From the NCBI GenBank assembly GCA_017798145.1, contig CP059069.1, positions 3,023,226 to 3,087,225 on the forward strand: a stretch of DNA of 64,000 nucleotides. The letters are read 5' to 3'. Within the stretch, counting starts at the first letter, position 1. Every line of letters starts with the position of its first letter. The DNA is from Akkermansiaceae bacterium (GTDB taxonomy: Bacteria; Verrucomicrobiota; Verrucomicrobiia; Verrucomicrobiales; Akkermansiaceae). The notes beneath the pieces are model-generated. The model worked only from the letters and a program-made list of their open reading frames with translations, was not told the DNA's origin and ran no database searches. The position numbers were made by a program, and so were the translations under genes. Shown piece after piece: positions 16,588 through 49,536 of this stretch.

Positions 16588-19254
16588 CTAGCCAAGCAGC
16601 TCGCGGATCATCGATGCATCAAGCTTGCGGACAATGTCCGCATCCGCGAGCAGTCCATCGGCAAGCTTGGCCTTCTCGATCTGGAGGCGGTGGATGCGCT
16701 CCTCGACGGTGTCCTGGCAGAGGAGCTTGTGGACGAAGACCGGCTTGTCCTGGCCGATGCGGTAGGCGCGGTCGGTGGCCTGGGCTTCGGCGGCGGGGTT
16801 CCACCAGGGATCGTAGTGGATCACGGTGTCGGCGGCGGTGAGGTTCAGGCCGGTGCCGCCGGCCTTGAGGGAAATAAGGAAGACGGGGAATTTCCCGGAT
16901 TGGAAATCCTCGACAAGCTTCCCGCGATCCTTGGAGCCGCCGGTGAGCTTCAGGTGGGGGACCTTGGTTTTCACCAGATGATCCTCGATGAGCGAGAGCA
17001 TGGTGGTGAATTGGGAAAAAATGAGGATGCGGCGGCCTTCCTCGATCAGTGTTTCGAGAAGCTCCGCGAGGAAATCGAGCTTCGCGGAGCTCTTCACGCC
17101 GTCGGCGAAATCGGGGGGGAGCAGGCGCGGGTCGCAGCAGATCTGGCGTAGCTTGAGGAGGGCGTCGAGGAAGACGATCTGGGATTGCTCGATGCCGCGC
17201 GCGGCGATGGCCTCGCGGACGCGCTTGTCCATGGTGGCGCGGACGGTTTCGTAGAGATCCTTCTGGTCGGAGTGGAGCTCGACAAGATGGACCATGATCG
17301 TTTTCGGCGGCAGTTCCTTGGCGACCTGGTCTTTCGTTCTCCTCAGGACTAGTGGAGCGATGCGTTTTTTCAGAAGGGCGTTCTTGTCCGCATCGCCCTC
17401 CTCCTCGATGGGCTTGCGGAAGTTTTTCTGGAAGGTGTCCTCCGTTCCGAGGTAGCCCGGGATGAGGAAATGCATCAGGCTCCACAGCTCGCCGAGGTGG
17501 TTCTCGATGGGCGTTCCCGAAAGGCAGAGCCGATGCCTTGCGACGACCCTGCACGCGGCCTGCGAGACCTTGGCGCGGGGGTTCTTGATGTACTGCGCCT
17601 CGTCGAGCGCCATGATATGATACTGGTAACCTAGTAGTCTCTCGATGTCGCGCTGCAGCAGGGCGAAGGAGGTGATGACCAGATCGGCGTGGGGGATGGA
17701 GCGGTAGTATTTCCTGCGATCCGCGCCGTTGAGGACAAGGACGCGCAGACCGGGCGCGAACTTGACCGCCTCCGCCCGCCAGTTTGGCACCACGGAGGTC
17801 GGCGCGATGACGAGCGAGGGCAAGCCGCCGCTGCGGCCGCTTGCCTTCTCCGCCATCAGGTGCGCTAGGGTCTGTAGCGTTTTGCCGAGACCCATGTCAT
17901 CTGCGAGGATGCCGTGGAGTCCGTGGCGGGCGAGGAACTGCATCCAGCGGAAGCCGTCCTTCTGGTAGTCGCGCAGGGTGGCCTGGAGTTCCGGGGGCTC
18001 ATCCAGTTCCTCGACCTTGGAGAAATTCTCCAGCCTCTTCTTGAGCTTCGCGAGGCCTTTGGGTGTCTCGATCCCAAGCCCTTCCAATCCACCGAGTGCC
18101 GCCGCATCCAGCGCATGGACGCGGACTTTCCCGAAGGATTTCGGATCCACCAGCGCGGAGAGGTGGTGAAGGATCCTTCGCACCCGGCCGATGGGCAGCT
18201 TGAGCGCATCGCCGTTGGAAAGAGGCGCGTATACGAAGCCGCCGTTCGGGCGGTCGAGTGTTTCCTCGAGGAAATCCTGTTTCAGCAAGCCCGCGAGGAT
18301 GGGCATGAGGTCGTGGCGCACCCCGTCCACATCGAAGCCCACCGAGAGGCTGAACCATCCGCCGTCGGAAAAGTCCCCCTCGTATCCATCCTCACCTTGC
18401 GAAATTTTCGTATGCCATTTCTCCGGATCCGCCTCGTGGACCTGGTGTCCGACGCCATCGCCGAAGCTCACCTTCCAGCCCATCGCCCCCAGCTCGGCCA
18501 CGGTCTCGCCGCGGAACTGGTGCCAGAAGGCATCGACAGGCACGCGGCCGGGGTCGGGAAACCACTTGTCGCTGCCCTCATCCGCACGCACCGAGCGCGA
18601 TTTCATGCTGAGCAAAAATCGCCACGCCGGGTTTGACATCATCGAGGAAAGCCCGGTCTCGCGGAGCTGCCGGATGGCGCGCATTTCCGCCGGGGTCTTG
18701 CCTCCTTCGCCTGCATCGGAAAGTGGTTTCCGCAGGTTCCCATAGCTGACAAAAGCCTCACCGAAAATCCACTCCTCCGGCTCCTTCTCTCCGAGCGACT
18801 GCAGCAAAAGCTTCGTCGCCCGATCCACCTCGCCCTTCCGCACCGCCAGCTCGAACACGGCCTCCGGAGCATCCTCACCCTCTCGCCCGATCTCCCCCTC
18901 ACCCGATCCTCTTTCCCCAAGGGCAACTTCGACCGCCTCCACCGCGGTCCTCCCGAACAGCCTTCCCAGGCGCTTCTCCTTCGCCATCTTCCCCACCATC
19001 GCGAAACCGTGTTCACAGAACGCACCGACATCGCAGGAGCAGCTTGTCTCGAAAGCCATGCCGCCACCCTCCTCCCAAAACGTCGCCTCCACTTCCTCCC
19101 CGAACACCTCCGCCTTCGCCTGGATCTCTTCCTCGCCTTCCAGCCTCAGCCCCTTCACCTTGGAAACCGCCCGCGCCCCGACTCCCCGCACCTCCTCGTC
19201 AAACCGCTCCACCCAGCTCTCGGCGGCCAAATACTCTTCCAATTTTCCGACCAT
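16588..19254 (-). CDS. SWIM zinc-finger / SNF2-family helicase
   Basis: An 888-residue Swi2/Snf2 ATPase. An N-terminal SWIM-like zinc motif (SCSCDVGAFCEHGFAM, near residue 75) is followed by a variable region and then the SNF2 core from about 410: Walker A GILADDMGLGKTLQTLA, APTSVVPNWRAEA, the DEAQ box LDEAQYIKN, the helicase C part ILIFSQFTTM, LKAGGTGLNL and ATDRAYRIGQ. This architecture is common in bacterial SNF2 proteins; the substrate is DNA or a protein-DNA complex and the cell role is uncertain. Start: ATG at 19252-19254; an in-frame TTG two codons upstream would add two residues. Confidence 0.9.
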   Translation of the reverse strand: MVGKLEEYLAAESWVERFDEEVRGVGARAVSKVKGLRLEGEEEIQAKAEVFGEEVEATFWEEGGGMAFETSCSCDVGAFCEHGFAMVGKMAKEKRLGRLFGRTAVEAVEVALGERGSGEGEIGREGEDAPEAVFELAVRKGEVDRATKLLLQSLGEKEPEEWIFGEAFVSYGNLRKPLSDAGEGGKTPAEMRAIRQLRETGLSSMMSNPAWRFLLSMKSRSVRADEGSDKWFPDPGRVPVDAFWHQFRGETVAELGAMGWKVSFGDGVGHQVHEADPEKWHTKISQGEDGYEGDFSDGGWFSLSVGFDVDGVRHDLMPILAGLLKQDFLEETLDRPNGGFVYAPLSNGDALKLPIGRVRRILHHLSALVDPKSFGKVRVHALDAAALGGLEGLGIETPKGLAKLKKRLENFSKVEELDEPPELQATLRDYQKDGFRWMQFLARHGLHGILADDMGLGKTLQTLAHLMAEKASGRSGGLPSLVIAPTSVVPNWRAEAVKFAPGLRVLVLNGADRRKYYRSIPHADLVITSFALLQRDIERLLGYQYHIMALDEAQYIKNPRAKVSQAACRVVARHRLCLSGTPIENHLGELWSLMHFLIPGYLGTEDTFQKNFRKPIEEEGDADKNALLKKRIAPLVLRRTKDQVAKELPPKTIMVHLVELHSDQKDLYETVRATMDKRVREAIAARGIEQSQIVFLDALLKLRQICCDPRLLPPDFADGVKSSAKLDFLAELLETLIEEGRRILIFSQFTTMLSLIEDHLVKTKVPHLKLTGGSKDRGKLVEDFQSGKFPVFLISLKAGGTGLNLTAADTVIHYDPWWNPAAEAQATDRAYRIGQDKPVFVHKLLCQDTVEERIHRLQIEKAKLADGLLADADIVRKLDASMIRELLG

Positions 19255-48043: not shown

Positions 48044-48077
48044 TACTATGAATCTAGTAATACTGCGAATCCAGTAA
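48044..48077 (+). repeat. Tandem 17-bp direct repeat upstream of the BlaI-H1 fusion gene
   Basis: TACTATGAATCTAGTAA (48044-48060) is followed immediately by TACTGCGAATCCAGTAA (48061-48077); 14 of 17 bases match. Each unit carries TACT and AGTA ends, giving partial dyad symmetry like winged-helix operators. A related sequence, GAAATACTAGTTTTC, lies at 48153-48167. It sits directly after the stop of the thioredoxin-like gene and 116 bases before the fusion gene, suggesting autoregulation, which is inferred. Confidence 0.55.
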
Positions 48078-48192
48078 CAGGGGGCTTCGCGGTGCGGGAA
48101 CGGGACGAGAAATTTATTTAGGAATTCCGTAATTTATCTTGACGGAAACATGAAATACTAGTTTTCTCGTAACCAAGAGAAGCAAGCGCCCA

Positions 48193-48918
48193 ATGGTAAC
48201 GCCATCCCATCCATCGAACCTCGAGCTCCAGGCGCTCTCCGTGCTCTGGCACGAAGGGCCATCTACGGTGAACGTAGTGCATGGGGCCCTGCCAGACGGC
48301 AGGGAGCGGGCCTACACGACGGTGCTCTCCGTGATGCAGAGCCTGGAGCGCAAGAAGCTCGTGAGGCGCATCCGATCCGGCAGGGCGCACACCTACGAGC
48401 CCGCCTATTCCCAGGAAGTCATCGTGCGCCGCGCCATGGACGACTTCATCACGAACGCTTTTGGAGGACGCCTCGGTGAGGCTGTTCTCGCTACCCTCTC
48501 CGCCGGTACATTGACACCGGAAGAGAAAACAAACATCGAACGCGAACTCCAACGACACAAAACCATGGCTGCAAAAAAAACAGTAAAGAAGGCCGCGGCC
48601 AAACCCGCGAAGAAAACCGCCAAGAAAGTTGCCAAGAAGGCGCCGGCCAAAAAAGCCGCACCCAAGAAGGCAGTGAAAAAGGCGGCCAAGAAAGCACCCG
48701 CTAAGAAAGCCCCGGCCAAGAAAGCCGCGGTGAAGAAGGCTCCGGCCAAGAAAGCGGCAAAGAAGGTGGCGAAAAGCGCCAAGAAGGTAGCGAAGAAGGC
48801 GGCGAAGAAAGTCGTGGCCAAGAAAGCGCCTGCCAAGAAGGCCGCCGCCAAGAAGGCACCGGCAAAAAAGGCACCGGCCAAGAAGGCACCGGCAAAAAAG
48901 GCCGCTAAGAAGAAATAA
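48193..48918 (+). CDS. BlaI/MecI-type winged-helix repressor fused to a histone H1-like tail
   Basis: A 241-residue protein. Residues 1-124 match the BlaI/MecI/CopY family from end to end: [69 protein letters not shown] and [17 protein letters not shown]. From residue 125 comes a 117-residue tail made of KKA, KKV, KAPAKK and VKK repeats, like the C-terminal domain of histone H1. An in-frame ATG begins the tail ([13 protein letters not shown]), so it could also be made alone. No blaR1-like sensor peptidase follows, which is usual for BlaI. A dual operator-binding and DNA-compacting protein is suggested by the architecture but not proven. Confidence 0.82.
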
Positions 48919-48994
48919 CCATACCACCGCAAACAGCACAGACTGCCCTCCGGGGCACAAAAGGCTGTTCGCGTTGTTCCTGATGTTTCGAAAC

Positions 48995-49026
48995 AAAAGC
49001 GGGAAGCCTATGGCTTCCCGCTTTTT
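48995..49026 (+). terminator. Intrinsic terminator after the BlaI-H1 gene
   Basis: AAAAGCGGGAAGCC (48995-49008) and GGCTTCCCGCTTTT (49012-49025) form a perfect 14-bp stem with a TAT loop, followed by a T-run to 49026. It lies 77 bases after the fusion gene stop and 37 bases before the next start. Confidence 0.92.
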
Positions 49027-49062
49027 GCTTCCATGCCCGCCGGGATGTGTTTTGCTGCGCGC

Positions 49063-49536
49063 ATGAAATACCACGCCGCATGGATCGTTGCCCTCTTCCT
49101 TTGCGCAGGCCCGGCGAGTGCGGGTGGCAACAAGGGGGAGCCAGCGAAGGTCTCGTTCCACATCGAGACGGAGGGCACGGACAACCCGAAGATGATCTTC
49201 CCGCACGGGGTCATGGGCAAGCAGCGGTTTTTCCGGAGGATCCCGGAGATCACCTCGAAGGACTTCGCGGCGTTTTCGCCCTTCCCTGCGGAAGACCAGG
49301 CATCCTACGGAGCCATGTTCCAGCTCAAGGGTAACGCCGCGAAACGCTTCGCGGCCGTGACCAACGCGAACCAGGGAAAATGGCTGGTGTGCCTCGCCTT
49401 CGGAAAGATCATCGACGGAGTTGTCATCGACGCACCCGTCGATGACGGGATCATCGTGGTCTGGAGGAACTTTTCCATCAAGGAGATCGAGCAGCTCGAC
49501 GAAACACTGCCAAGGATAGCGGCAAGGAAAGACTGA
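49063..49536 (+). CDS. Exported protein with SecD-P1-like region
   Basis: A 157-residue protein with a signal peptide (YHAAWIVALFLCAGPASA). The C-terminal 70 residues (TNANQGKWLVCLAFGKIID ... IDAPVDDGIIVVWRNFSI) resemble the periplasmic P1 region of SecD (NVGKRLAIVLDGKVISAP ... ITGNFTLEEA). It has no SecD membrane helices, so it would be a free-standing periplasmic version. The relation is remembered pattern similarity and should be treated as tentative. It is followed by the M23 peptidase 7 bases later. Confidence 0.6.
   Translation: MKYHAAWIVALFLCAGPASAGGNKGEPAKVSFHIETEGTDNPKMIFPHGVMGKQRFFRRIPEITSKDFAAFSPFPAEDQASYGAMFQLKGNAAKRFAAVTNANQGKWLVCLAFGKIIDGVVIDAPVDDGIIVVWRNFSIKEIEQLDETLPRIAARKD

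Follow-up and report, generated by a model that had tools for sequence, protein, structure and literature searches.

A histone H1-like gene probably nested in frame within a BlaI-type repressor gene of Akkermansiaceae

Does the open reading frame (ORF) at 48193-48918 specify one protein, a BlaI-type repressor with a lysine-rich tail, or two, with the tail also translated by itself from an ATG at the junction? This locus, located in the window (the whole 64,000-nt stretch of Akkermansiaceae DNA that was analysed), was compared with its relatives in the family and order.

A repressor part joined to a basic tail

The reading frame and its two parts are as follows.

48193-48918, + strand: whole ORF, BlaI domain plus H1-like tail (241 aa, calculated 25.7 kDa)
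48193-48564, + strand: BlaI/MecI winged-helix repressor part, residues 1-124 (PF03965 at residues 8-120)
48565-48918, + strand: nested ORF, putative free H1-like tail (117 aa, calculated 11.9 kDa, pI 11.7)

The ORF begins with ATG, ends with TAA and is open across the BlaI/tail junction. The Penicillinase_R profile (PF03965) matched residues 8-120 with an E value of 2.8e-24 and 86.1 bits (cut-off 22.6), covering profile positions 2-114 of 115, as in a full BlaI/MecI/CopY domain. The nearest solved chains for this part were 2g9w, 2k4b and 1sd4, the last of which is named penicillinase repressor. The last 117 residues consist of 51 K, 44 A, 10 P, 8 V, 2 T, 1 M and 1 S, with a calculated pI of 11.7. 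Their score against the H1-like model NF038053 was 34.2 bits, under the cut-off of 80, so the tail resembles H1-like proteins without being filed as a member; its likeness to them, its composition and its pI suggest that it could compact DNA. The preliminary description of a complete BlaI/MecI repressor fused in frame to a 117-residue K/A/P tail that starts at an ATG codon (48565) is thus borne out.

The source genome (one contig, 4.39 Mb) contains three PF03965 genes, and its two M56 matches adjoin the other two. No M56 (BlaR1-type) gene was found beside ORF 48193-48918, which agrees with the earlier remark that a BlaR1 sensor is absent here and leaves the gene outside the BlaI/BlaR1 pairs. 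A search for further tails of this kind in the same genome gave just two weak places (E 0.18 and 0.39). The 5' neighbours are TatD, LysM and thioredoxin-like genes, the thioredoxin-like match being below its curated cut-off. Same-strand matches to the three were found in 56, 59 and 52 of the 63 loci tested, respectively, some of these loci being short and the LysM count possibly containing paralogs.

Matches at E 1e-3 were found in 48 of 59 genomes of relatives, paralogs counted in. At E 1e-18, 135 of the 260 family genomes matched, distributed in 8 of 16 genera, genus g18 not being among them. The named genomes, titled Luteolibacter, Haloferula, Akkermansiaceae and others, provided 61 ortholog loci, most with BlaI protein identities of 74-95%. 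The basic tail was in frame in 59 of the 61, the remaining two being truncated by contig ends, which indicates that the fusion is more than chance. Reading the family orthologs whose BlaI part is intact showed no stop or frameshift between residues 120 and 130, which would have spoken against the fusion.

Orthologs with the tail in frame come from eight genera of this family; two more families of the order have them too. Using a query from family f3, 108 of the 386 genomes of the order matched at E 1e-17, mostly from that same family; the tailed form was carried by eight f3 genomes and one f6 genome, and three f2 genomes that were read encode a BlaI without such a tail. The frame is kept across the linkers in eight of the nine f3/f6 copies, L040 having a one-base shift near residue 95. 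A tailed BlaI in the f2 genome G361 (L273) is close to the genus g27 copies and is a probable bin contamination; it was excluded from the counts, except for the strict-form palindrome count below. The 138 complete loci that have the ATG (L011/L061 and others, duplicates counted) carry tails of 27 to 176 residues, a spread such as repeat expansion would give, and the shortest tail may be an assembly collapse.

The internal ATG and its leader

Among the 135 loci of the family, 111 were fetched, and 110 of these could be read across the junction, one ending too early; the internal ATG was kept in 102 of them and in 60 of the 61 named-genome loci, the other one being cut short. The two sets overlap in genomes. 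It was also found in all nine f3 and f6 copies, although the preceding linker varies in length and sequence. The eight family loci without it are six from genus g31 (L130-L134 and L154; six of the eight g31 genomes fetched), L148 (g19) and L165 (g26). The basic tail is still fused in all eight, and its outlasting the ATG in 8 of 110 loci suggests that the tail also does something on BlaI.

The surroundings of the ATG contain the following features.

48457-48585, + strand: synonymous-constraint block, codons -36 to about +7 around the internal ATG (silent-site comparison)
48464-48489, + strand: leader hairpin 1 (consensus fold; absent from the window's own minimum-energy fold)
48497-48526, + strand: leader hairpin 2 (consensus fold; covaries at silent sites)
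48527-48564, + strand: A/C-rich leader 5' of the internal ATG (no Shine-Dalgarno-like 4-mer)

Strong synonymous constraint covers about 108 nt 5' of the ATG and 7 codons 3' of it. Scored in ten-codon windows over 63 distinct sequences (0, codon-usage expectation; 1, invariant), silent sites gave 0.01-0.27 up to codon -37 and 0.37-0.77 from about -40 to +11; codons about -52 to -37, just 5' of the block, were unconstrained. Among diverged pairs (silent identity in the BlaI body below 0.6), the leader exceeded the BlaI body in silent identity in 1818 of 1819 (0.77 vs 0.44-0.45), although these pairs are not independent. By genus, the leader was the more conserved part in 27/27 (g27), 192/196 (g29) and 3/3 (g26) pairs. 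In the five g31 sequences without the ATG, a small group, the leader was not more conserved than the body (0.39 vs 0.41; 4 of 9 pairs), and codons -16 to +7 gave 0.43 vs 0.40 (5 of 8 pairs).

RNAalifold on the 63 sequences predicted two hairpins followed by a stretch that is open through the ATG. In this alignment 98.9% of cells pair, with 18 two-sided changes compared to 6.5 in shuffles, none of 500 reaching the observed number. For hairpin 2, 47 diverse sequences gave 31 two-sided change cells compared to 10.7, again with 0 of 500 shuffles, and a silent third-position pair in this hairpin appears as CG (17), UA (14), AU (4), UG (2), GC (1) and GU (1), being unpaired in 8. One of its nine pairs, which fails in 14 of the 47 sequences, was dropped by RNAalifold. 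Compared with codon-resampled versions of 21 of the 63 sequences, positions -38 to +20 were more often unpaired (0.69 vs 0.53; more open in 21/21), and the hairpin region was barely more paired (unpaired 0.36 vs 0.38; 17/21). In the minimum-energy fold of the window hairpin 2 is kept, hairpin 1 is missing and the leader is partly paired with upstream sequence. Folded alone, the window's leader gave an unconvincing z of -1.18, 31 of 200 shuffles being equally or more stable, so the support for the fold was taken from the alignments. No Rfam match was found at the constrained block up to E 5. Seven Rfam matches up to that E value, all under their gathering scores, lie 3' of the leader at 48940-49100 and were discarded.

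The 36 nt 5' of the internal ATG are 45% A and 32% C. A Shine-Dalgarno-like 4-mer preceded none of 100 internal ATGs, compared with 20 of 111 first starts at script-assigned positions. Two f3 copies, L041 and L250, do have AAGGAG or AAGGAA 5' of the internal ATG. The joint conservation of ATG and leader is the start-like behaviour of this codon, and the ATG at 48565 looks like a real, conserved translation start, well supported by the comparison. The tail-only product, raised in passing in the preliminary description, has thereby become its best-supported part; the accompanying idea of one protein that compacts DNA while recognising an operator is a conjecture.

The upstream region

Four candidate elements precede the gene.

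48044-48059, no strand: palindrome TACT-N8-AGTA, putative BlaI operator (sequence pattern)
48061-48076, no strand: second palindrome TACT-N8-AGTA, putative operator (sequence pattern)
48156-48171, no strand: third, looser palindrome TACT-N8-CGTA, putative operator (sequence pattern)
48139-48144, + strand: TTGAC box, perhaps a -35 element, with no -10 element resolved (motif enrichment)

A promoter scan found nothing in this region. Palindromes of the form TAC(T/G)-N8-(A/C)GTA were present in 91 of 138 distinct upstream regions (170 nt) compared with 13 of 1380 shuffles, and TTGAC was present at most 110 nt from the start in 98 of 138 compared with 155 of 1380, mostly near -50 to -60; both enrichments overstate the independent evidence, since related sequences share ancestry. 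The strict form was perfect in 27 of 142 regions (3 of 710 in the control), a count that took in L273 and three tail-less f2 BlaI genes (L274-L276), all left out of the 138. In family f3 the palindrome lies closely 3' of TTGAC. The 17-bp repeat noticed earlier is one member of a set of three palindromes, which probably suit self-repression of the BlaI gene. The CopY operator consensus, RNYKACANNTGTMRNY in the part of the source available (PMC7253601), is related to these palindromes, not identical with them.

A wide regulon of TACT-N8-AGTA sites showed no sign of existing: the perfect palindrome occurs at 26 genomic places, whereas a reversed-pattern control gave 90. Of the other places twelve were inspected: a long ORF on some strand overlaps 11, and two were judged intergenic. 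A further perfect TACT-N8-AGTA is found in the window at 17621-17636 (G000:C1:3040846-3040861).

Separated tails and a probable gene within a gene

Copies in which the two parts have come apart were also found. A covariance model built from 47 fused leaders with the ATG matched the leaders of stand-alone KA-rich genes in seven g31 genomes (G272, G269, G273, G278, G276, G275 and G274; E per genome 1.1e-5 to 4.7e-3), four of them found first by protein search and three new from the RNA model. Because an A-rich lysine start raises the score at the last positions of the model, each score partly reflects shared start context; the model also picks up A-rich starts in unrelated lysine-rich proteins and, weakly, two ATG-less fused copies (L131, E 1.9e-4; L130, E 1.3e-3). 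Of the six g31 genomes whose fusion lacks the internal ATG, five have a stand-alone tail gene with a similar leader; none was seen in the sixth, G270 (82% complete). G272 combines a fusion that has the ATG with a stand-alone copy, and in G271, which kept the ATG, no stand-alone copy was seen.

Two draft genomes, G163 and G167 (390 and 190 contigs, 95% complete), retain the leader, the ATG and a tail (90 and 125 residues; L315 and L316), whereas only fragments of BlaI are left. L315 still folds both hairpins. The TTGAC box lies 296 nt (G163) and 358 nt (G167) 5' of the ATG, compared with 426 nt in the window.

The best explanation, which we consider probable from these comparisons, is a histone H1-like gene nested in frame in the BlaI gene, so that the locus would yield the fusion protein as well as the tail by itself. 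In this scheme a single mRNA would come from one promoter, on which the BlaI domain probably acts as repressor through the TAC(T/G)-N8-(A/C)GTA palindromes. Translation from 48193 would produce a 26-kDa BlaI repressor with a histone-H1-like tail; translation from 48565, preceded by a dedicated leader of two hairpins followed by an A/C-rich stretch without Shine-Dalgarno, would give the 12-kDa tail alone, which would coat and compact DNA. Because promoter and stop are common to both, the repressor would determine how much free tail protein is made. That the fusion is also made is suggested by the open frame and by the conservation of the BlaI protein while silent sites of its body agree at 0.44-0.45. 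Weighing against the nested-gene explanation are the eight ATG-less loci with a fused tail, the window's own minimum-energy fold, the lack of a Shine-Dalgarno-like 4-mer 5' of the internal ATG, the RNA model's matches to unrelated lysine-rich proteins and to two ATG-less copies, and the tail's score below the NF038053 cut-off.

It is unlikely that only the fusion is made, with the lysine-rich tail raising the repressor's DNA affinity and the junction methionine being a relic of a fused gene. The frame does stay open, and eight family loci retain the basic tail without the ATG, but a relic would preserve neither silent sites, hairpin pairs nor an open leader, and would not remain once BlaI decays, as in G163 and G167. 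Two genes in practice, with the tail transcribed separately from a promoter within BlaI so that the in-frame overlap matters little, would account for the stand-alone genes with a similar leader and for tails that outlive BlaI in these two genomes. This arrangement is quite improbable: the unconstrained codons about -52 to -37 show no conserved internal promoter there (promoters can be loose, though), the TTGAC box persists upstream in G163 and G167, and eight of nine f3/f6 copies hold the frame across variable linkers. An element unrelated to tail translation (a binding site, small RNA or antisense gene) would suit a block that is long (about 130 nt) and begins sharply, but is very improbable, since the block stops about 7 codons past the ATG, its constraint is absent from copies without the ATG, its second half recurs 5' of stand-alone start codons and Rfam has no match there up to E 5.

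The nested gene can be compared with several known systems. As in BlaI/MecI/CopY repressors, the winged-helix domain covers nearly the whole PF03965 model and palindromic sites lie upstream; unlike them, this gene has no adjoining M56 sensor, and has a long lysine-rich tail and an in-frame gene start inside. Lysine-rich H1-like nucleoid proteins include chlamydial HctA/HctB, Pseudomonas AlgP and the tail of mycobacterial HupB. The present tail shares their K/A/P repeat composition and very high pI, but falls under the curated H1-like cut-off and is encoded within a repressor gene.

A conserved internal start with initiation signals, as in genes with in-frame dual products, was found by comparison of the sequences. 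According to the available parts of the sources, AerR has long and short forms through an in-frame internal start (PMC6199135) and phage endolysins can produce two polypeptides from one gene in the same way (PMC9430671), so that, as proposed here, two proteins share one frame and one stop. In these accounts the short form is part of the same regulator or enzyme, whereas the free tail would differ in functional class from the front half and would be translated behind a structured leader, and lineages exist here where both parts have separated. No paper on a BlaI-H1 fusion or nested gene was among the matches listed in a literature search, most subscription journals being outside its coverage.

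One ORF could be a complete self-limiting chromatin circuit, with an operator-specific repressor and a nested histone H1-like nucleoid protein, the ratio of the two being set by a conserved structured leader RNA inside the coding sequence, mostly without Shine-Dalgarno; this joint reading, in which the arrangement dates to the common ancestor of several families in the order and was later dismantled in some lineages, is offered tentatively and falls just short of probable. A gene caller would report one protein here and overlook the free histone-like product, even though silent sites of this gene are most strongly conserved around that product's start. The natural controls at this locus (ATG lost, BlaI lost, stand-alone copies) bear on translation starts inside a gene without Shine-Dalgarno and on a nucleoid protein tied to its own repressor.

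Fifteen places matched by the RNA model were fetched and read. L312-L314 are stand-alone tail genes and L315-L316 the copies with decayed BlaI; a KA-rich start was absent from L317, L319, L320 and L321. At L318, L324 and L325, from genomes (g28, g18) that lack the fused gene, the match lies at the start of a KA- or KP-rich protein with an A/C-rich leader, a possible counterpart of the free tail. L322 and L326 are small proteins with a KA-rich front, and L323 is an enzyme-like protein with a basic front.

K/A-rich N-terminal stretches occur on several unrelated proteins (L210, L215, L192, L322, L326 and L323), among them two DksA/TraR-like by eye, small ones with LNYxxRxExGLPGDS-type endings and the enzyme-like one. 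Another recurrent feature of the family, including g18, is a small basic protein (about 60-100 aa) in which a conserved RRRR...EYLKRKKEQ.KL front is joined to a K/A-rich tail (L112 in the source genome itself, and L209, L219, L223, L224, L227 and L239).
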